Part shown: positions 14,089-62,454 of the stretch, one piece after another | Layout of the letters: each line of letters opens with the position of its first letter | Position numbering within the stretch: position 1 is the first letter of the stretch | From: Tenacibaculum todarodis | GTDB taxonomy: Bacteria; Bacteroidota; Bacteroidia; Flavobacteriales; Flavobacteriaceae | Assembly (NCBI RefSeq): GCF_001889045.1 | Contig: NZ_CP018155.1 | Span: 1,173,001 to 1,237,000 of the forward strand | Reading direction: 5' to 3' | Length of the DNA: 64,000 nt | The notes under the pieces: generated by a model | Database searches by the model: none | Told to the model about the DNA's origin: nothing | Seen by the model: only the letters and a program-made list of their open reading frames with translations | Translations under genes and position numbers: made by a program

Positions 14089-15693
14089 CTACATTTTAAG
14101 AACCGTAAACTCTAACTGCAATGGCTTTAGGTTATCTTTTAATTGCTGAATAAAATCGTCGCCATATTCTAAATAGTATTCGGAAAAATTACGCTGACGT
14201 TCTTCTAAACTCTGGTTTGGAAAAAGTTGATTCTGTAAATCCGTGATTCTTTGTACTAAATCGTGTTGTTTACGTTTTTCTGCTCTCAACAAACGTTTTT
14301 CAAGGTTTTCTAAACCTTTTATTTGCTTTTTTTCTTGAGCGTTTACAGCACCTAAAAAAGAAACATCTGTTTTTTCTGCAATAACTTTTAACTCAGAAAA
14401 TTGTTGCTTTAAAAACTCTTTTTGTTGTTCAAAATCTACTGAAACCTCAGAATTTTCATTCACTTTTTTAGTTAGTAAATCGTTTTGCTTTAAAAAGATT
14501 TCTTCAAGCGAAATATTTAGTTTTTCTAATTTCTTAGATCGCTTTTCCGAAACAACCTGCACAGAATTACGTAATAATAATATTGGAAAAGGAACTTCAA
14601 CTTTCTTGAAATAGCTTTTTAGCTGTAACCAATAGGCAATTTCACCACCACCACCAACGTAACTTAAGTTTGGTAAAATTACTTCTTGATATAATGGGCG
14701 CATTAATACGTTTGGTGAAAAACGTTCTGGATATTTTTCTAATTCTGATAAAATTTCTGCTTCAGAAAAAGTGATTTCTGTATTATTAATTTGATAAACA
14801 CCATTTTCAAAAATAATTCTTTCTCGTTGATTGTTAGCTAAATAAAATAAATTTATCTCACGAGGATTTACTTGAACTTTATAATTCTTTTCAAACTCTA
14901 AATTCGTTTTAGAAACCTCATTGTAAGAAGTATGATTTAATAATTCATCTTTTACAAACGGAATAAAAGAACGCTTTAAATCCGCAGTATCGGCATCAAT
15001 AATTACAATTCCATATTTACCAAACAACTCATTGGCAATATATTGAGTTGCTTCTGCTAAATTATTGTGTTTTATATAACCTTCAGAAAACAGCTCTTTT
15101 AACTCGTTAGCTCTTTTAGAATCTCCTAATTTTGCAGAAAATACCGCTAAAACTTCTTCTAGTCCTTCCGTAGAAAAACGACCAACTGCGCCATTCTGAT
15201 TGGTATTCCATCTAAATTTAACGTCTTTAAAATTAAAAAAGTTAATTTCCTCAAAATCATGATCTTCTGTTGCCATCCAATAAATTGGAACAAAATTTTC
15301 TTTAGGAAATTTCACAGACAATTCTTCGCATAAGTTAATGACAGACAATATTTTATATAAAAAATATAAAGGACCTGTAAATAAGTTTAATTGGTGACCT
15401 GTAGTTATAGTAAAGGTGTTATCATTCGCCAATAACTCAATATTAGCTTTTGTTAACTCAGAAATAGAACTGCTCTTATATTGTTTTTTAAGAGATTCAA
15501 CTAAAATAGTTCTCGACTCAGCTTTAAATGACAACTTTTTCTCCTCAATTTGTAACTTAAAACCTTCTAAGTTTGGAAAATTATTATAAAAAGGGAGAAT
15601 TTTAGCATCTTTAGCTAGATAATCTTCCATTGTTTTTGTGAAATACCCAGTGTTTTTAAACGGAATATGCTCTATACAATCTGTTTCTGTCAT
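14089..15693 (-). CDS. bshC: Bacillithiol biosynthesis cysteine-adding enzyme BshC
   Basis: A 534-residue cytoplasmic enzyme that adds cysteine to glucosaminyl-malate, the last step of bacillithiol synthesis. Family signatures are easily seen: IPFKNTGYFTKTMEDYL at the start, TITTGHQLNLFTGPLYFLYK, PIYWMATEDHDFEEINFFNF, and the C-terminal helical coil (residues about 395-490) rich in Lys/Glu/Gln. Length is typical. It is monocistronic here; the deacetylase step is encoded separately at 43737-44453 (bshB1), while the glycosyltransferase bshA is not in the window. The organism therefore very likely makes bacillithiol rather than relying on glutathione. Confidence 0.95.
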   Translation of the reverse strand: MTETDCIEHIPFKNTGYFTKTMEDYLAKDAKILPFYNNFPNLEGFKLQIEEKKLSFKAESRTILVESLKKQYKSSSISELTKANIELLANDNTFTITTGHQLNLFTGPLYFLYKILSVINLCEELSVKFPKENFVPIYWMATEDHDFEEINFFNFKDVKFRWNTNQNGAVGRFSTEGLEEVLAVFSAKLGDSKRANELKELFSEGYIKHNNLAEATQYIANELFGKYGIVIIDADTADLKRSFIPFVKDELLNHTSYNEVSKTNLEFEKNYKVQVNPREINLFYLANNQRERIIFENGVYQINNTEITFSEAEILSELEKYPERFSPNVLMRPLYQEVILPNLSYVGGGGEIAYWLQLKSYFKKVEVPFPILLLRNSVQVVSEKRSKKLEKLNISLEEIFLKQNDLLTKKVNENSEVSVDFEQQKEFLKQQFSELKVIAEKTDVSFLGAVNAQEKKQIKGLENLEKRLLRAEKRKQHDLVQRITDLQNQLFPNQSLEERQRNFSEYYLEYGDDFIQQLKDNLKPLQLEFTVLKM

Positions 15694-26289: not shown

Positions 26290-26410
26290 AAGCTATTTCC
26301 TGCTTTTCACTGTATCTTTTCTTCATTCTTCAGAAAAGGATGCCGTTGCAATCAGGGCTACGCTTTTTTGCTAACGTTCTGTCATTGCGAAGTTTACTTT
26401 TTTGTAAACT
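26287..26410 (-). repeat. Interspersed repeat, type B, with a trailing GTCATTGCGAAG segment
   Basis: On the minus strand this reads ...tagccctgattgcaacggcatcc, a cttttc/gaaaag hairpin, then gtgaaaagcaggaaatagcttc. It starts at the uvrA stop. Bases 26349-26408 match 34904-34962 at all but a few positions (cagggcta..gc..tttgctaacgttctgtcattgcgaag...). A further type B copy in the other orientation is at 38308-38385. Confidence 0.7.
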
Positions 26411-38189: not shown

Positions 38190-38413
38190 ATAAATATTTT
38201 GTCATTCCCGAGAAACTTGTGCTCAACTTGATTGGGTATCGGGAATCCATACTTACTTGTCCATAGATTCCGCATCAAGTGCGGAATGACACAAAGCCAG
38301 CAAACAAGTTTAGCCCTGATTGCAGCGGCATCCTTTTCTGAAGAATGAAGAAAAGATACAGCGGAAAGCAGGTTTCAGCTTCAAATAATACTTCGACTTC
38401 GCTCAGTACAAGC
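38190..38413 (+). repeat. Nested intergenic repeats
   Basis: In order: a gtcattcccgaga...tcgggaatcc imperfect palindrome (about 38201-38247), gattccgcatcaagtgcggaatgac (about 38266-38290), a type B element (tagccctgattgcagcggcatcc...gcggaaagcaggtttcagcttc, about 38311-38382) and cttcgacttcgctcagtac (38392-38410). It looks like several small mobile or palindromic repeats collected in one gap; no coding potential is seen. Confidence 0.7.
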
Positions 38414-50030: not shown

Positions 50031-50080
50031 AAAAGTTAGAAGAAGGAAGTATGGAGAAGGAAGGAAGTTAGCAAGTACGT

Positions 50081-50180
50081 GCGTTAGGGATTGAAACAGC
50101 ATCCTTTTTTGAAGAATGAAAAAAAGATATAGTGGAAAGCCCGTTAAAACGCCCATATTTCGACTACACTCAATACAAGA
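50081..50180 (+). repeat. Interspersed repeat, type A, plus cttcgac-type tail
   Basis: gcgttagggattgaaacagcatcc, hairpin core tttttgaagaatgaaaaaaag, atatagtggaaagcccgttaaaacgcc, then tttcgactacactcaatacaag, a degenerate relative of the argS repeat. Fills the 178-bp gap. Confidence 0.65.
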
Positions 50181-56311: not shown

Positions 56312-56728
56312 ATGATGAATATTCCAAAAGGAAAAAAATTAATTTTATTTGACGGTGTTTGCAACTTGTGTAATAATGCAGTGTTAAAAACTATTAAATT
56401 AGATAAACATAACAAATTTGTTTTTGCATCATTACAATCTAATTTTGGACAAGAAACTATCAACCATTTAAAGATTGATGTAACTAAAATTGATTCTATT
56501 ATTTTGGTGGAAGAAAATTATTTATACTCCATTAAATCTTCAGCTGCTTTAAAAATAGCTGCTAATTTTGGTGGTTTATGGAAAATGACACAACTATTTT
56601 GGGTATTTCCTTCAGTAATTAGAAACTTTGTTTATGATTTTATTGCTAAAAACCGATATAATTGGTTTGGTAAAAAAGAAAGCTGTATGATTCCTACTAA
56701 AGAGTTAATGTCTAAATTTATTGAATAA
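56312..56728 (+). CDS. DCC-family thiol-disulfide oxidoreductase (DUF393)
   Basis: A 138-residue thioredoxin-fold protein. The DCC motif is visible in LILFDGVCNLCNNAVLKTI (D-G-V-C-x2-C), followed by FASLQSNFGQETI, SIILVEENYLYSIKSSAALKI and the C-terminal FVYDFIAKNRYNWFGKKESC. Members are thought to be thiol-disulfide oxidoreductases of unknown partner. The start offers two ATGs in tandem (56312, 56315). Monocistronic, and convergent with the QEGLA gene across a hairpin. Confidence 0.92.
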   Translation: MMNIPKGKKLILFDGVCNLCNNAVLKTIKLDKHNKFVFASLQSNFGQETINHLKIDVTKIDSIILVEENYLYSIKSSAALKIAANFGGLWKMTQLFWVFPSVIRNFVYDFIAKNRYNWFGKKESCMIPTKELMSKFIE

Positions 56729-56730
56729 AC

Positions 56731-56753
56731 TTATTTTAAAGAATTTAAAATAA
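56731..56753. terminator. Hairpin at convergent 3' ends
   Basis: Perfect 10-bp stem ttattttaaa/tttaaaataa with loop gaa, starting at the stop codon of the QEGLA gene and two bases after the DCC stop. Weak (A/T only) but symmetrical. Confidence 0.5.
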
Positions 56754-57891
56754 AATCTATTGTTTTGTTTTTGTTATTATTTTTTAAATAAGCATCCGTA
56801 TAATGTTTTATTGGCGTTGCATATTTATTTTCAAGCAAGTAAGTAATATCATCTACAAACTCCAAAGAAACTTTACCTGTTAAGAGTAATTTTAAGTCTT
56901 TACCTTTATTATAATAATCATATACTTTTTTTAAACCTGTTAAGTATAAATAATCTTTAGTAAAACCACCTCCACGATGTGCTCTTGTGGTTATGTAAAA
57001 AGCTTGTTCTTTTTCTAAATCGTAAGTATTATGGAGTAATCTAAATGTTTTAGAAAAAGTATACCCTTTTGCTAAACTATCTACAGCTAAAACTCTATAA
57101 GCCAATTCTTTTAACCTTCTAATAGTTAAATTTCCAGACATATACTCACTAAAAACAGCTAAACCTTCTTGTGTTTCTACGTTACTTGGAAATCCATGAG
57201 AGAATATTTTTAAAGGATGTAATAAACCATTCATTGTAGTAACCATATGTACACCAATTTCATGATTGGTTAAAATACCCATTTCATTTTCTGAAAACGT
57301 ATGGTTTTCATTTAAAACCAATGTTTGAATATTATTTAAGACCATAGCAATTGCTCCCATGGTTTTAGAGTATTTTATATCGAATGTAAAATTGTATTGC
57401 TTGGCGTAGTTTCTAAATAACTCTTCGGCTTCTTTTGGAGAGTATTTTGGTTGAAAAATTTCAGACTCTTCACCTTCAGCATTAAAATGAAGAATAAATT
57501 TTGCGTTTTCTACATCTTGTTCTGTTGGAGTTCCGAAGGAATGTAAACTATTATAGTAGAACTTTTTTCCTTCTCCTACAGTTTCTATACATTGTATTAA
57601 ACCTGAATAAAAATAAATAATTTCTTCATACAGGTTTCGTAACCTTTCTTCTTCTATTTCTTCTAGAGGCTGCGTAAAAAACTCTCTATGTAATTTAAAT
57701 TTATCAAAATCTCTTTTAGGATATACAAAACTAGGGTCCGTAAAGTAGTTAGAATCAAAAAATAGCTGCTTTTGTTCTTCTATATTAGTAGGATTTACGT
57801 AGCTTAAAAGTTCGATTTTTTTAACCAAACTATCTACATAATTATCTATTTTAAAAAGTGATGCTGTTTTTAAAGAAGTGTCATTCATCAT
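56731..57891 (-). CDS. QEGLA-motif (DUF1704) metallopeptidase-like protein
   Basis: A 386-residue protein of the DUF1704 family, called flavohemoglobin-expression-modulating QEGLA protein in bacteria. The zinc motif is HEIGVH (H210, E211, H215; HExxxH) and QEGLA lies at 241-245 with E242 as likely third ligand. The same motifs occur in the animal tubulin tyrosine carboxypeptidases (MATCAP/KIAA0895), so a carboxypeptidase-like activity is plausible. RAHRGGGFTKDYLYLTGL near the C-terminus is also conserved. Last gene of the ATP-grasp operon, 28 bp after the amidohydrolase; two TAnnTTTG boxes (57902-57909, 57915-57922, minus) suggest it may also have its own promoter. Partner and substrate unknown. 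Confidence 0.88.
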   Translation of the reverse strand: MMNDTSLKTASLFKIDNYVDSLVKKIELLSYVNPTNIEEQKQLFFDSNYFTDPSFVYPKRDFDKFKLHREFFTQPLEEIEEERLRNLYEEIIYFYSGLIQCIETVGEGKKFYYNSLHSFGTPTEQDVENAKFILHFNAEGEESEIFQPKYSPKEAEELFRNYAKQYNFTFDIKYSKTMGAIAMVLNNIQTLVLNENHTFSENEMGILTNHEIGVHMVTTMNGLLHPLKIFSHGFPSNVETQEGLAVFSEYMSGNLTIRRLKELAYRVLAVDSLAKGYTFSKTFRLLHNTYDLEKEQAFYITTRAHRGGGFTKDYLYLTGLKKVYDYYNKGKDLKLLLTGKVSLEFVDDITYLLENKYATPIKHYTDAYLKNNNKNKTIDFILNSLK

Positions 57892-57919
57892 AAATCAAGT
57901 GCAAAATTACGGTACAAAG

Positions 57920-58750
57920 TTACGCTTTATGCTTTTTATAAAAGTTTTCTGCGTGTTTTTTTAATTCAATTCTTAAATATTTTTCAACTGCTTGCACCAC
58001 TTCTGGAAACATAGTTTGTGTTAACTCATCACAATATACTTTTGCTATCTCTGTTGCCAGAACTAAAGTATTGTTGAAATTTTGAGTAATAAACTTTAAA
58101 AAATATCCATTTCCTTGAAAAGTATCGTTAATTTTTGAAGTTGATTTTATTCCGTTTGGTAATTGCATTTTTTCTAAAACTCTTCGCCAAGATTCTGCTT
58201 CTTCTCCAAAACGATTATTATCGATATTTGATGTTCCTAAATTCCATATTGGTACTTCTCTATCCCAACGTTTCCAATTATAACTGTGCATATCATACAC
58301 AACACAAACTCCAAACTTTTCTTCTAATTTCGTAATTAAAGCGTGTACAACTTTATAAAAATTTGCATGTTTTGCTAAACTTTTATCTTTTTGACTTTTA
58401 GGTAACTCATTGCGCCATAATTGTTTTCCCCAAGCATCTGTATAAATTGCCGTTTCTGGCGCGCGATTTAAATCGTATTCGAATCGAGAATCTAAACCTG
58501 CTATAATTATTGGATGCATTTTAACCATTTCTTTGGTTTCCGGGTCCTCTTCAAACCAACGTTCATAGGCTGTGTGTATACAATTATCCCACAATTCTTT
58601 TCTAAATTGATTTCCATCGTGAACAGCTCCACAAACATACGGAACATATTCTTCAATCTTTATTGTAAATGAATAATCTGAGGAAACAGCTTCAAAAAAT
58701 TCTTCATTTTCAATTTTATGAATAATTTTTTCAACAGATAATCTTTCCAT
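57920..58750 (-). CDS. N-formylglutamate amidohydrolase family protein
   Basis: A 276-residue zinc amidohydrolase of the FGase family (PF05013). Seen: YVPYVCGAVHDGNQFRKEL (the S/G-xxHxG-type metal site), PIIIAGLDSRFEYDLNRAPE with E/D ligands, CVVYDMHSYNWKRWDRE (D-x-H-S-Y), and ATEIAKVYCDE near the end. The canonical enzyme frees glutamate from formylglutamate in histidine breakdown, but no hut genes are nearby; here it lies between TerB-like and QEGLA genes, so another N-acyl or amide substrate is likely. Its ATG overlaps the upstream stop by one base (TAATG). Confidence 0.88.
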   Translation of the reverse strand: MERLSVEKIIHKIENEEFFEAVSSDYSFTIKIEEYVPYVCGAVHDGNQFRKELWDNCIHTAYERWFEEDPETKEMVKMHPIIIAGLDSRFEYDLNRAPETAIYTDAWGKQLWRNELPKSQKDKSLAKHANFYKVVHALITKLEEKFGVCVVYDMHSYNWKRWDREVPIWNLGTSNIDNNRFGEEAESWRRVLEKMQLPNGIKSTSKINDTFQGNGYFLKFITQNFNNTLVLATEIAKVYCDELTQTMFPEVVQAVEKYLRIELKKHAENFYKKHKA

Positions 58751-59076
58751 TACTTTAATATTTTCTTTAAAAACATAAATGCATTCTTCTCTAAAATATC
58801 TACAGAACCATCAGCAAAACAAACCTCTTTTATTTCTTTAATTAATTGTGTTTTACCTTCTTCTGAATATTTATTATCTAATAAATATTGTTTTATTTTT
58901 TCCATACTTTGATAATCGTTATCATGTACAATTTCTGTATGAATTGCATTGAACGATTTTTCATCTACTTTAGATAAAATATACTTGCTTTCTTCTTCAG
59001 TTTCGATGTAATTACTTTGTGCAACATACAATAAAACATATGCTGTAAATTCTTCTTTTGTCCAATTTAGTGTCAT
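58750..59076 (-). CDS. TerB-like small acidic protein
   Basis: A 108-residue, all-helical acidic protein: LNWTKEEFTAYVLLYVAQSN, ETEEESKYILSKVDEKSF, and GKTQLIKEIKEVCFADGSVD with D-G-S-x-D followed by EKNAFMFLKKILK. The layout (Asp-rich DGxxDxxE near the end) recalls TerB/tellurite-resistance-type domains, although short. Encoded between the sulfurtransferase (six-base gap) and the FGase gene (TAATG overlap), so certainly part of the operon. Role unknown. Confidence 0.8.
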   Translation of the reverse strand: MTLNWTKEEFTAYVLLYVAQSNYIETEEESKYILSKVDEKSFNAIHTEIVHDNDYQSMEKIKQYLLDNKYSEEGKTQLIKEIKEVCFADGSVDILEKNAFMFLKKILK

Positions 59077-59082
59077 AATTTA

Positions 59083-59922
59083 TTATTTTATAATTGGTAA
59101 TTCCGTTCTACTGCCCCATTCTGTCCAAGAACCATCATAAACCGCGTAGTTTTTGATGGTTGCAATTTCTGCTCCTAAAGCTAAAATACAAGCTGTAATT
59201 CCGCTTCCACACGAAAAAATTAAGGAATTGTTCTTTGGATTTATTTCTTCGAAAACTTTTTTTAATTCTTCTGTTGATTTTAACCTTCCGTTAGAAAGCA
59301 TTTCTCCATAAGGCAAACTTACCGAATTAGGCATATGACCTCCACGAATTTCTTTTCTTGGCTCAGGTTCAGTTCCATAAAACCTTCCTTTAGAACGCGC
59401 ATCAGCAATTAAAATAGTATTGTTTTTGGTTGCTGATAAAACTTGTTCTGTAAATTTTATTTTTTCTGGTTGATAATCTGCTATAAAATTTCCTCTAGTA
59501 AATGAGTGTTCTTTTGGTTTTTCTATGTTGAAATTAGCTTTTTCCCAAGCAGGAAAACCTCCATTTAAAACCGCAATATTATTAAAACCCATTAATTTAA
59601 ACATCCACCAAACTCTTGGCGCAGCGTAAACTCCTAAATCATCATAAACAACTATACAGCTGTCTTTGTTAATTCCCAATTTTTGGGCTTCTTCCTGAAA
59701 CTTTTCAGCAGATAAAATAGTATTTGGATACTGCGATTCTTTATCAGAAAATGTGTTCTTTATATCAAAAAAACGAGTGTTAGAAATTACCTCTTTATTG
59801 ATATTCGTTTCATTTTTAGTACCTACTTTAGGAATTGTAGCATCTAGAATAACAAGGTTTTCTGCATCAATATTTTGATGCAACCAATCTACTGAAACTA
59901 TGGGTTTATCCACTTTTATCAA
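59083..59922 (-). CDS. Sulfurtransferase, 3-mercaptopyruvate/thiosulfate type
   Basis: A 279-residue protein with two rhodanese domains. Domain 1 (residues 1-140): VSVDWLHQNIDAENLVILDA, DDLGVYAAPRVWWMFKLMGF, VLNGGFPAWEKANF. Domain 2 has IADARSKGRFYGTEPEPRKE, GGHMPNSVSLPY and the active-site loop CGSGITA, in which the CGSG(V/I)T form favours 3-mercaptopyruvate. The start is TTG at 59922 (or GTG at 59913); an in-frame stop just upstream excludes a longer protein, and no ATG fits. It lies 57 bases after the ATP-grasp gene. Confidence 0.93.
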   Translation of the reverse strand: MIKVDKPIVSVDWLHQNIDAENLVILDATIPKVGTKNETNINKEVISNTRFFDIKNTFSDKESQYPNTILSAEKFQEEAQKLGINKDSCIVVYDDLGVYAAPRVWWMFKLMGFNNIAVLNGGFPAWEKANFNIEKPKEHSFTRGNFIADYQPEKIKFTEQVLSATKNNTILIADARSKGRFYGTEPEPRKEIRGGHMPNSVSLPYGEMLSNGRLKSTEELKKVFEEINPKNNSLIFSCGSGITACILALGAEIATIKNYAVYDGSWTEWGSRTELPIIK

Positions 59923-59979
59923 CTTCTATTTTTTACAAATGTTGTTTTTTTTCTGTTAACTAAAAAACTGCTAACTGAT

Positions 59980-61014
59980 TTATGCTTCGTCTACTTGTCT
60001 TTTTAAATCCGATTTTCTAATAAAAGCAGCATTTCTTTCCAAATATTTACTTTCCATAAAATCCACAACTTTTTCTTGTACTTTGGTTTTATAAACTTTA
60101 TTCATGTACGTAATTCCTCCTGGACTCATAACATTAACCTCCACAAGTTTACCTCCAATTACATCTATGCCAACAAAATACAATCCGTCTTTAACTAATT
60201 TTGGTCCAATTTTTTTACACAATAATTTTTCTTGTGCAGTAAGTTTATGTTTTTCAATTGTACCTCCTGCAGACACATTAGATCGATGATCTTTATCTCC
60301 AGGAACACGTTTCATGGCTCCAATTGGCAATCCATTTAATAGTAAAATTCTTACATCTCCTTTATCTGCTCCTTCAATATATTCTTGTAAAATTACATAA
60401 TCTGAATTTCCATCTCCTTTATTTATATAAAAATCTAAAAGCGAATTAATGTTTCCCATTGCAGATTTTTCAATTAAAATAACTCCAGAACCACCAAAAC
60501 CATTTAGCGGTTTTAGTATCATTTTATCTGAATTAGATTCTTCAATCATTTTAACCAAATAATCTTTGTTTTTAGAGACATGTGTAACCGGAATTATCTC
60601 GTTATTAGGATCTTCAAATACAGCGGTGTATAATTTATTATTTGCAACACGCATACCTTGTACTGAGTTAATAATAAAAACATCGTCTTTAACTGAATCT
60701 AAAAAGTTTAACATTATAGGGTCTAAAGGTGGTTCTGCCCTCATAAAAATAATATCGAACCCTGCTAGTGGTAGCATTTCTTCTCTGGTTTCAGTTTTTT
60801 TATGAAACGATTTTAGACTTGCAGGAACTTTGTCTGCACGTTTTAAAATTGTACAAAAAGCATTTGTTACACTATTTCTAATAGTTAAATTAGAAGGCGA
60901 ACAAATTGCAACTCCATGACCTCTTTTTACACATTCATGAATAAGTGTCATAGAAGTATCATTTTCTGGGGCTTTTATACTTTCCCAAGGATACATTAAA
61001 AAACAAACGTTCAT
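59980..61014 (-). CDS. ATP-grasp ligase, glutathione-synthetase-like
   Basis: A 344-residue ATP-grasp enzyme of the GshB type. N-terminal domain: VCFLMYPWESIKAPENDTSM, VKRGHGVAICSPSNL, FDIIFMRAEPPLDPIMLNFL. ATP-grasp: KMILKPLNGFGGSGVILI, VILQEYIEGADKGDVRILLL, AMKRVPGDKDHRSNVSAGG, and FVGIDVIGGKLVEVNVMSPGG. In proteobacteria GshB makes glutathione; this organism has bacillithiol genes instead and no gshA is nearby, so a different peptide-type amide product is likely. First gene of a five-gene minus-strand operon; seven 7-bp repeats begin two bases upstream of its ATG. Confidence 0.9.
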   Translation of the reverse strand: MNVCFLMYPWESIKAPENDTSMTLIHECVKRGHGVAICSPSNLTIRNSVTNAFCTILKRADKVPASLKSFHKKTETREEMLPLAGFDIIFMRAEPPLDPIMLNFLDSVKDDVFIINSVQGMRVANNKLYTAVFEDPNNEIIPVTHVSKNKDYLVKMIEESNSDKMILKPLNGFGGSGVILIEKSAMGNINSLLDFYINKGDGNSDYVILQEYIEGADKGDVRILLLNGLPIGAMKRVPGDKDHRSNVSAGGTIEKHKLTAQEKLLCKKIGPKLVKDGLYFVGIDVIGGKLVEVNVMSPGGITYMNKVYKTKVQEKVVDFMESKYLERNAAFIRKSDLKRQVDEA

Positions 61015-61015
61015 A

Positions 61016-61067
61016 TTGTTAGTTGTTAGTTGTTAGTTGTTAGTTGTTAGTTGTTAGTTGTTAGTTG
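61016..61067. repeat. Tandem repeat, seven copies of TTGTTAG
   Basis: Seven exact copies (61016-61064) plus three bases of an eighth, ending two bases upstream of the ATP-grasp start codon. They fill the leader of the minus-strand operon. Copy number could change by slippage and alter translation or promoter spacing. Confidence 0.9.
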
Positions 61068-61128: not shown

Positions 61129-62454
61129 CTATTTCACTGCATCGTAATTATCGTCCCAGTTTTTTGGTTTTGGATCGTGTAATTTTCCTACAGATTTTGC
61201 AACAATCATAGATACAGTTGCATCTCCGGTAACATTTATTGTAGTTCTTAACATATCTAAAGGTCTATCTACTGCAAAAATTAATGCCAATGCAACAGGA
61301 TATAAATCTTTTGGGAAACCAATAGATTCTAAAACAATTACCAGCATTACCATTCCTGCTCCAGGAACTGCTGCACTACCAATTGAAGCTAAAAGTGCTG
61401 TTAATACAATAGACATTTGGTTTGCAAACCCTAAACCTTCTGGCCATAAAACTTGCATTACAAAAACTGCTGCTACTGCTTGGTATAAACTTGTTCCGTC
61501 CATATTAATTGTTGCACCTACAGGTAAAACAAAACTAGATACTTCTTTATCTACACCAATATGCTCTTCTACACGTTCCATTGTAACAGGTAAAGTTGCC
61601 GCACTTGAACTTGTAGAAAATGCTAATAGCTGTGCAGGACTTAGTTGTTTTAAAAACCATAACGGATTTTTCTTTGTTATAAGACTAACTAATAAACAGT
61701 AAAAAGCTACCATTATTAACAATCCTAACACAACAACTCCTGCATATTTTAACAACGCTAACAATATATCTGGATCTCCAGAAGTAACCACTACATTAGC
61801 TAATAGTGCAAATACTGCATAAGGAGACACCAACATAATAAGATCTACCATTTTTAAAATGGCATCATTTAAACCATCAAAGAAATCTTTTAGTGGTTTT
61901 GCTTTTTTCTCTCCTATTAATAACATAGATATTCCTAAGAAAATAGTAAAGAATATTACTTGTAACATTGCCTTATTATTACTCATAGCACTTACAGCAT
62001 TGTCTGGTACCATATCTACAACAAATTGTAAAGGACCACTACTTTGTTGCTTTGATGCTTCGGTAATTTTTGAAGTTATACTCGAACTTTTTGCATAGGT
62101 ATTTGTTAATTTGTCAATTGTTTCTTGAGAAATACCATCTCCTGGTTGCATTATATTAACCAACACTAAACCTATAGTAATTGCAACTACTGTTGTACCT
62201 ATATAAATAAGGATAGTTCTAACACCTATATTTTTAAATTTAGAAATGTCTTTTAAATCTGAAATTCCTTTTATTAGTGAAGCTACAATAAGCGGAACTG
62301 CAATTAATTTTAATAATTTTACAAAAATTGTTCCTAGAGGTTTTATCCAATCCGCAATAAAATTTTGCCAACCTAATTGTAATGCTAAGAATCCAAAAAG
62401 AATTCCTAAAACCATTCCAATCATTATTTTCCAGTGTAGTGCTAGTTTTTTCAT
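61129..62454 (-). CDS. Dicarboxylate/amino acid:cation symporter (DAACS)
   Basis: A 441-residue inner-membrane symporter of the GltP/DctA family. Eight helices and two re-entrant loops are expected; signature segments are FVKLLKLIAVPLIVASLIKG, VPDNAVSAMSNNKAMLQVIF, FSTSSSAATLPVTMERVEEH (HP1 serine-rich loop) and LPVGATINMDGTSLYQAVAA (helix 7), followed by GSAAVPGAGMVML (HP2) and ALALIFAVDRPLDMLRTTIN-VTGD (helix 8; R and D contact the substrate). Imports aspartate, glutamate or C4-dicarboxylates with Na+ or H+. Monocistronic. Confidence 0.95.
   Translation of the reverse strand: MKKLALHWKIMIGMVLGILFGFLALQLGWQNFIADWIKPLGTIFVKLLKLIAVPLIVASLIKGISDLKDISKFKNIGVRTILIYIGTTVVAITIGLVLVNIMQPGDGISQETIDKLTNTYAKSSSITSKITEASKQQSSGPLQFVVDMVPDNAVSAMSNNKAMLQVIFFTIFLGISMLLIGEKKAKPLKDFFDGLNDAILKMVDLIMLVSPYAVFALLANVVVTSGDPDILLALLKYAGVVVLGLLIMVAFYCLLVSLITKKNPLWFLKQLSPAQLLAFSTSSSAATLPVTMERVEEHIGVDKEVSSFVLPVGATINMDGTSLYQAVAAVFVMQVLWPEGLGFANQMSIVLTALLASIGSAAVPGAGMVMLVIVLESIGFPKDLYPVALALIFAVDRPLDMLRTTINVTGDATVSMIVAKSVGKLHDPKPKNWDDNYDAVK

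Follow-up and report, generated by a model that had tools for sequence, protein, structure and literature searches.

Gene content of the locus

The analyzed stretch, herein referred to as the window, comprises 64,000 nucleotides of the Tenacibaculum todarodis genome (contig NZ_CP018155.1, positions 1,173,001 to 1,237,000 of the forward strand; family Flavobacteriaceae, phylum Bacteroidota). Five open reading frames (ORFs) were found on its minus strand in the order A-B-C-D-E, with gaps of 57, 6, -1, and 28 bp. Judging from sequence comparisons, the conserved unit is three predicted enzymes, the ATP-grasp ligase A and the hydrolases D and E (herein referred to as the trio), and the window holds the Flavobacteriaceae edition of a widespread module. 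The five genes are as follows.

59980-61014, minus strand: A, GshB-like ATP-grasp ligase (PRK12458 class), 344 aa; C-terminal extension ending in KRQVDEA, not in Escherichia coli GshB
59083-59922, minus strand: B, TTG start; two-domain rhodanese or mercaptopyruvate-sulfurtransferase-like protein; accessory
58750-59076, minus strand: C, small TerB-like protein, 108 aa; TerB similarity sub-threshold; accessory
57920-58750, minus strand: D, FGase-family (N-formylglutamate amidohydrolase-like) predicted metallo-amidohydrolase
56731-57891, minus strand: E, MATCAP/QEGLA predicted metallocarboxypeptidase (HEIGVH and QEG motifs)

The five minus-strand genes and their gaps agree with an earlier description of the locus (herein referred to as the original prediction). 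The end of the first gene, placed there at 61067, has to be moved: the first start codon in the frame of A is the ATG at 61014, 53 bp off, and 61067 is the final base of a tandem repeat.

Linkage and distribution of the trio

The MATCAP family of E (Pfam: PF08014) was found in 11 of 39 relatives and in 9 of 24 members of the genus. In all 11 PF08014-bearing genomes among the 39, the window included, A lies beside D/E. Six members of the genus have the layout A-B-C-D-E; the others have A-B-D-E (L015), A-B-C-D-long E-second ligase (L014), and A followed by a fused D-E gene (L012). In a phylum sample of 198 genomes, PF08014 was found in 12 and a strong match to PRK12458 (over 390 bits) in 11, 10 of them over the curated cut-off. 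The ligase gene is within about 4 kb of a MATCAP gene in all 11; the twelfth PF08014 genome, G222, has MATCAP alone. Thus, two uncommon genes co-occur and adjoin.

A collection of 84,980 species was scanned with an alignment of 11 trio MATCAPs. At least 572 relatives were confirmed, and the best 80 were kept, 60 of them with at least 3.5 kb of upstream and 2.5 kb of downstream sequence. These 60 loci were picked by similarity, not at random, and Bacteroidota (Sphingobacterium, Pontibacter) are strongly over-represented among them. A was found near E in 59 of the 60 and D in 53; 52 loci have both, and all 60 have the extra domain of the long E. L091, the only locus in which A is too distant to count as near, has a ligase about 5 kb away on the opposite strand. 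Ten groups are represented: Bacteroidota, Pseudomonadota, Planctomycetota, Gemmatimonadota, Acidobacteriota, Calditrichota, Poribacteria, Campylobacterota, Myxococcota, and Kiritimatiellae.

Three layouts were distinguished. Layout I is A-D-E, with D and E fused in some loci; layout II is D'-long E-A2, A2 being its ligase; layout III combines both in one cluster (L014, L035, L036, and L056). Layout II alone, as three same-strand genes, was found in rhizobial replicons (Shinella, Mesorhizobium, and Sinorhizobium meliloti pSymB) and in Roseateles, and its genes are annotated as N-formylglutamate amidohydrolase, QEGLA protein, and glutathione synthetase or synthase. In current naming, QEGLA proteins are "flavohemoglobin expression-modulating" and trio ligases are "glutathione synthetase." Multiple ligase copies per cluster were observed in L065, L079, L087, and L121 (Planctomycetota) as well as in L068 and L071, with two E-A units in L065, L079, and L121.

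The spacing between E and A is -4 bp in 20 of 68 pairs. This compactness bears on the idea of a graspetide-like natural-product cluster, in which A would cyclize a ribosomal precursor and E and D would mature the product. Graspetides are indeed made by ATP-grasp enzymes and matured by peptidases. Here, most gene pairs overlap or nearly touch, which leaves little space for a precursor between them, and no recurrent precursor-type neighbor was found among the ORFs surveyed (70 aa or longer). Additionally, window A matches no graspetide model up to an E-value of 0.01, and such models reach 17-19 bits in relatives, against cut-offs of 350-425. We regard this explanation as very improbable.

The linkage is confined to one MATCAP clade. 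PF08014 was found in 29 of 299 Pseudomonadota and 38 of 199 Planctomycetota, and among 60 loci from these phyla (L140-L199; 1.5 kb flanks, some ended by contig ends) MATCAP stands alone in 41. Linkage as a property of PF08014 as a whole was rejected on this count, with further orphans in Legionella, Pseudoalteromonas, and G222. A weak ligase match lies beside an orphan-type MATCAP in L152 and L183. In G511 (L200), E is trio-like (358 bits), and none of the genes shown around it is a partner. A third MATCAP class, observed in Planctomycetota (L205 and L206), adjoins an apparent ffh (signal recognition particle) gene, as assigned by eye.

The view that ATP-grasp, FGase, and QEGLA genes belong together, part of the original prediction, is thus strengthened by conserved linkage in relatives and by the D-E fusions. 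The neighborhood survey that it had proposed gave strong linkage, and neither of the contrary outcomes, absence of linkage or presence of gshA (two families searched), was seen. In the literature searched, no paper dealing with the trio itself was found, and nothing relevant on gshB1/gshB2; given a 2009 survey of amidoligases, prior prediction of the linkage is quite possible. The trio is a real, widespread enzyme module, uncharacterized as far as found, and the earlier statement that it has no established product still stands.

Predicted hydrolases D and E

D matches the FGase family (Pfam: PF05013; 48.8 bits, cut-off 28.9) and lies below the HutG equivalog TIGR02017 (15.5 bits, cut-off 278.75). 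Its candidate metal-site motifs are HDG, SRFEYDLNR, and DMHSYN. In 90 D-type frames, the corresponding patterns HxG[HN], SR[FY]xxDxNR, and DxHS[YF]N, which we take to be the metal ligands of FGase, were found in 81, 88, and 65 frames, respectively. Profile search up to an E-value of 10 found no solved structure for D.

E matches PF08014 at 308.6 bits (cut-off 27) and has the motifs HEIGVH and QEGLA. It falls under the cut-off of TIGR02421 (289.6 vs. 338.65), which two fused relatives exceed. HExxxH together with a third ligand in [QE]EG was found in 109 of 109 E frames over 300 bits, window E (487 bits) included.

D and E are fused into one gene (product of about 667 aa) in L012, L013, L021, L040, and L052. 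A fused D-E query gave 1062 matches, and every one of the 120 listed contains both PF05013 and PF08014. No ligase-MATCAP triple fusion was found among the 120 matches listed per query, which is less than a full search.

The long E (about 610 aa) consists of E and an extra N-terminal domain, for which no Pfam match was found in the one protein tested. The profile of this domain aligns with D over 142 columns (probability 90.8%, E-value 1.2e-6). The motifs HxG[HN] and DxHSYN were found in none of 94 such domains, vs. 81 and 65 of 90 D frames. The long E thus seems to bear a degenerate FGase domain in addition to the separate D, a feature that looks new.

A hydrolase of the AstE_AspA_cat family was found near E in L041, L118, and L201 (by Pfam) and in L095 (by similarity). 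Profile search found no FGase of the D type in the genomes of L041, L095, and L118; the genome of L201 (G337) has an FGase at another locus. It looks like, in a few cases, a hydrolase of the AstE/AspA type replaces D with similar chemistry.

Ligase A and the glutathione question

A contains the GSH-S_N and GSH-S_ATP domains. Its best NCBIfam match is the PRK12458 subfamily (444.6 bits, above the cut-off of 408), and it lies below the glutathione-synthase equivalog TIGR01380 (231.6 bits, cut-off 299.05). Could A be a true glutathione synthetase, making glutathione or another GSH-like thiol? It aligns with E. coli GshB across residues 17-323 (1e-35), and it passes one other GshB equivalog model by 6 bits. 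In a tree of 39 rows, A forms one clade (98/99), separate from A2 and closer to canonical GshB (93/100), with long branches.

On the other side, the GshA profiles PF04262 and PF04107, the two GshA families searched, match nothing in the genome, which encodes the bacillithiol enzyme BshC. In 2 of the 11 trio genomes searched, a canonical GshB exists besides the trio ligase (Shinella, 403 bits; Cocleimonas, 424 bits), and the trio ligases of these genomes score 207 and 187 bits on the canonical model, respectively. Near the end of the fold, both A and A2 have SPG, vs. SPT in canonical GshBs. Since no GshA of these two families was found, BshC is present, and canonical GshB stands beside the trio in 2 of 11 genomes, glutathione appears an unlikely product of A, as the original prediction had held for ordinary glutathione synthesis; the broader identification of A as a synthetase of glutathione or a similar thiol strikes us as highly unlikely.

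Another GshB-like gene was observed in L044 and L045, where it sits among further unknown genes in a conserved cluster that also encodes a protein of very large size (about 1800 aa) and has no MATCAP.

Conserved C-terminal tail and relation to tubulin carboxypeptidases

A and A2 mostly run about 20 residues past the C-terminus of E. coli GshB. The last seven residues follow N-x-x-[LMIV]-[ANCS]-[TVMSA]-[LIMFY] in 72 of 90 distinct A2 proteins, a set chosen by active-site motif that leaves variants such as L041, L069, and L118 outside the count. The 18 A2 proteins without the motif are 17 from Sphingobacteriaceae and that of L064. Of 111 ligases, 99 share the alignment column of their stop codon; among E and D proteins, only 31 of 107 and 27 of 88 do so, respectively. 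Tails of class A, the window type, end in V-[DEQK]-[END]-A in 15 of 22 rows labeled A, a label given by script that also took in a few other rows, e.g., L095. Conservation of the ligase tail up to the stop codon looks new.

Tails at AstE/AspA loci (L041, IACMK; L118, LATMD; L095, LATLDV) are 1-2 residues longer than the rest, as is that of L069 (LAVMD), where no FGase was found. A tie between tail length and hydrolase type was rejected, since L094 and L102 lack FGase and have ordinary tails; the lengths are given as an observation only.

Tubulin ligases belong to the ATP-grasp enzymes, whereas deglutamylases other than MATCAPs are peptidases of the M14 family. A profile of 11 trio E proteins finds human MATCAP (KIAA0895L) at 1.4e-15 and 60.7 bits, bearing out the homology of E with tubulin carboxypeptidases that had been noted earlier. 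A profile of six orphan bacterial MATCAPs reaches the same human protein at 0.0038 and 19.2 bits. It is suggestive only, as the profile sets differ in size and breadth, that the trio MATCAPs may be closer to the human enzyme than the orphans. According to one study, human TMCP1 removes a C-terminal Tyr, Ala, Glu, or Gly, human TMCP2 prefers Glu and Ala, and glutamate chains are shortened; its survey section covers eukaryotes and is silent on bacterial relatives (PMC10499314).

Tail and kinship together raise the possibility of a cycle like that of the tubulin ligases and tubulin carboxypeptidases, in which A would add one amino acid or a short chain to a protein C-terminus and E (with D) would erase the addition; the target could be the ligase's own tail. 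The nearness of E to the tubulin enzymes in the two profile searches would fit, as would the position of the tail motif at the exact end of the A2 proteins and the stop column common to most ligases. The V-[DEQK]-[END]-A endings of class A tails may also be set beside the reported preference of TMCP2 (PMC10499314). Yet a conserved tail may equally have its docking site in E, in the degenerate FGase domain, or in the ligase itself; no candidate-substrate gene recurs among neighboring ORFs of at least 70 aa; and the tail is absent from the trio-bearing Sphingobacteriaceae and from the A of L021. On balance we consider a protein-tail cycle unlikely, with perhaps a one-in-several chance.

A bolder version, which we think distinctly improbable, would make the trio a bacterial forerunner of the tubulin-tail cycle. 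In it, an ATP-grasp writer and a MATCAP eraser, held together with an active and often also a degenerate FGase domain, would add and remove a residue at a protein C-terminus, first of all at the conserved end of the ligase (-N-x-x-[LM]-A-T-L or -V-[DE]-[EN]-A). Of the bacterial MATCAPs compared, the trio clade would then be the one most closely related to the animal tubulin carboxypeptidases.

Accessory genes B and C

B matches the rhodanese family (Pfam: PF00581), and its CGSGITA loop is presumably a motif of the mercaptopyruvate-sulfurtransferase type. It lies below the 3-mercaptopyruvate sulfurtransferase equivalog PRK11493 (224.8 bits, cut-off 250). Among the families of the original prediction, ATP-grasp, rhodanese, FGase, and QEGLA are supported by profile matches, and "TerB-like" for C is weak: against TerB (Pfam: PF05099; cut-off 24.4), C scores 13.3 bits in the window and its orthologue in L037 16.9 bits, and hhalign gives a probability of 4.7% (E-value 0.0085).

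In the genus, B was found in 8 and C in 7 of the 9 PF08014-bearing members. A search of 101 loci (L033-L133) gave B in four (L036, L037, L055, and L056) and C in two (L037 and L056), all of them Flavobacteriaceae; L037, with both genes, belongs to Tenacibaculum itself. B and C are local additions, Flavobacteriaceae-only in the loci searched and not strictly confined to the genus. The five-gene set as a conserved unit, proposed earlier as one pathway, was rejected on these counts. With B and C found in Flavobacteriaceae loci only, neither sulfur transfer nor TerB belongs to the chemistry that the loci have in common. The suggestion of a possibly sulfur-bearing product found no support beyond Flavobacteriaceae. 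In L016 (12437-13270), the frame of B spans just 189 aa; the gene may be broken, or its start may lie farther off.

Genomic context and salt response

Two further features lie directly upstream of the five genes.

61129-62454, minus strand: SDF-family (glutamate/aspartate-type) symporter, 114 bp upstream of the five-gene set
61016-61067, no strand assigned: perfect 7-bp tandem repeat, 7.4 copies, directly 5' of the A start codon

The symporter gene, a same-strand neighbor omitted from the original prediction, is found beside A in many relatives. It lies ahead of A in the window, in L033-L037, and, with the exception of L012, in the other PF08014-bearing members of the genus (7 of 8); a more distant SDF gene lies upstream in L055, L056, L058, L059, and L062. 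The motifs NMDGT and D-x-x-R-T...N-V-T-G-D, which we assume to form the acidic-amino-acid site, were found in 13 of 13 proteins examined. The C-terminus of the symporter is acidic and conserved (WDD.....VK) in 12 of these 13, from the window and relatives; the end of the L035 protein differs. Terminator-like hairpins were seen by eye between SDF and A in L018, L019, and L037, so co-transcription is not general.

In Photobacterium damselae, the consecutively tagged genes A0J47_RS17020 (GshB) and RS17025 (QEGLA) were up 38.4-fold and 27.5-fold, respectively, at 1% vs. 3% NaCl in a published study, whose authors name the first of them glutathione synthetase (PMC10308900). Another Photobacterium has A followed by a fused D-E gene. 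A comparative study of Vibrio vulnificus lists both VV2_1203 (COG3930) and VV2_1204 (glutathione synthetase) among the clade-2-specific genes (PMC3091676), a pattern as expected for a unit gained or lost together. Within 4 kb of the 80 loci, MscS-type channels were found in 5, CorA in 4, and sigma-54 activators in 7; Pfam checks covered 4 of the 5, 3 of the 4, and 2 of the 7, respectively. The setting of the module may be salt or osmotic adaptation.

Another reading is a catabolic or salvage module, in which D and E would degrade an imported or internal conjugate and A would recycle a fragment. Two of the three enzymes are hydrolases, the SDF symporter lies upstream in Flavobacteriaceae, and the published induction at low salt (PMC10308900) would fit removal of a solute. 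Nevertheless, the partner tied closest to E (59 of 60 loci) is an ATP-consuming ligase, which points to making as well as breaking, and no catabolic gene family was recognized among recurrent neighbors, assigned by eye with few Pfam-checked. A mainly degradative role is one that we would give a rather low chance.

PADLOC gave no match for any of the five proteins of the window or for the one long E tried, nor did PHROGs for the proteins tried, and a phage or defense role was rejected for lack of such matches among them.

The unit of the tandem repeat is TTGTTAG (plus strand), and the repeat stops 1 bp short of the A start codon. A second array of the 7-bp repeat lies at genome positions 641939-642055, and no exact three-unit match was found in 222 relative loci. 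The repeat is a possible slippage site affecting translation of A. Elsewhere in the window, a BshC-like bacillithiol gene lies on the minus strand at about 14566-15675 (genome 1187566-1188675), and four Flavo-1 RNAs were found at 2365-2441, 26292-26363, 38308-38379, and 50066-50150. A gene for a DCC1-like thiol-disulfide protein (56312-56728) is convergent with E; homologues lie near the trio in L015, L018, L033-L037, L055, L058, L059, and L062.

Proposed function of the module

The best reading of these data, which we hold tentatively and rate a little short of an even prospect, is that the trio would make and break an amide at the carboxyl end of an acceptor, the amino acid probably being acidic. 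From its family, A would activate a carboxylate with ATP and couple the carboxyl terminus of an acceptor, a small acyl compound or peptide, to an amino acid, glutamate or aspartate being the likeliest. D, from a family that cleaves N-acyl-glutamates, and E, as a metallocarboxypeptidase, would remove or trim the residue on the same acceptor. The gene fusions suggest that D and E would act as one complex. The level of the conjugate would be set by the balance of making (A) and breaking (D and E), the SDF symporter may import the acidic amino acid, and B and C would be additions to the module in Flavobacteriaceae. The acidic nature of the amino acid is suggested by the families of D and AstE/AspA, by removal of terminal Glu by the animal relatives of E, and by the SDF motifs.

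Several observations weigh against this make-and-break reading. A narrowly passes the glutathione-synthase equivalog PRK05246 (277.9 bits, cut-off 272), and in 9 of the 11 trio genomes no canonical GshB exceeds the cut-off, so that the trio ligase is the sole GshB-like enzyme of that model. D is missing from 7 of the 60 loci, and in L069, L094, and L102 it was found nowhere in the (draft) genomes. Homology between FGase and AstE/AspA is undetectable by profile comparison (probability 0.4%), and L201 has E and AspA with no ligase among the nine genes shown around it. The ion and osmotic neighbors are scattered (MscS-type, 5/80; CorA, 4/80), in counts that carry no background rate. The link to salt comes from one organism, through its locus tags and not its sequence, and the main text of the report does not name formylglutamate, which a fused gene would hide (PMC10308900).

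If the make-and-break reading is true, the names "flavohemoglobin expression-modulating" and "glutathione synthetase" both mislead. Should the module be a single pathway, a shared, testable role would fall to more than a thousand sequence clusters (1243 and 1062 matches, which may overlap), the low-salt expression data of Photobacterium, read as glutathione synthetase, would need a new reading, and the animal tubulin-tail carboxypeptidases would gain a bacterial context, with kin already partnering an ATP-grasp ligase.

Comparison with known systems

E. coli GshB (PDB: 1gsa) shares with A two Pfam domains, similarity over most of the length, and an alignable ATP-grasp core. The window and trio ligases differ from it in having no GshA partner found, in SPG instead of SPT, and in linkage to E; most trio ligases have the C-terminal extension of about 20 residues, and in Shinella and Cocleimonas the trio ligase coexists with a canonical GshB. 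Members of the FGase family such as HutG resemble D in the PF05013 match and the retained candidate metal-site motifs, whereas D fails the HutG equivalog, and some of its relatives are fused to MATCAP. The animal MATCAP/TMCP enzymes (KIAA0895L; PDB: 7z5g, 7z5h, and 7z6s) share with E the HExxxH motif, the downstream [QE]EG motif, and an alignable catalytic half; E, in contrast, is bacterial, is linked or fused to FGase-type domains, and is linked to an ATP-grasp ligase.

A parallel in logic may be the N-acetylaspartylglutamate (NAAG) cycle, in which a RimK-type ligase forms NAAG, while a carboxypeptidase and an aspartoacylase break it down. In this cycle and in the NAGGN operon, an ATP-grasp ligase is likewise paired with hydrolases acting on an acyl-(di)peptide. 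Unlike the trio, these systems use other hydrolase families at the carboxypeptidase step, and the five genes of the window include neither an acetyltransferase nor an amidotransferase.

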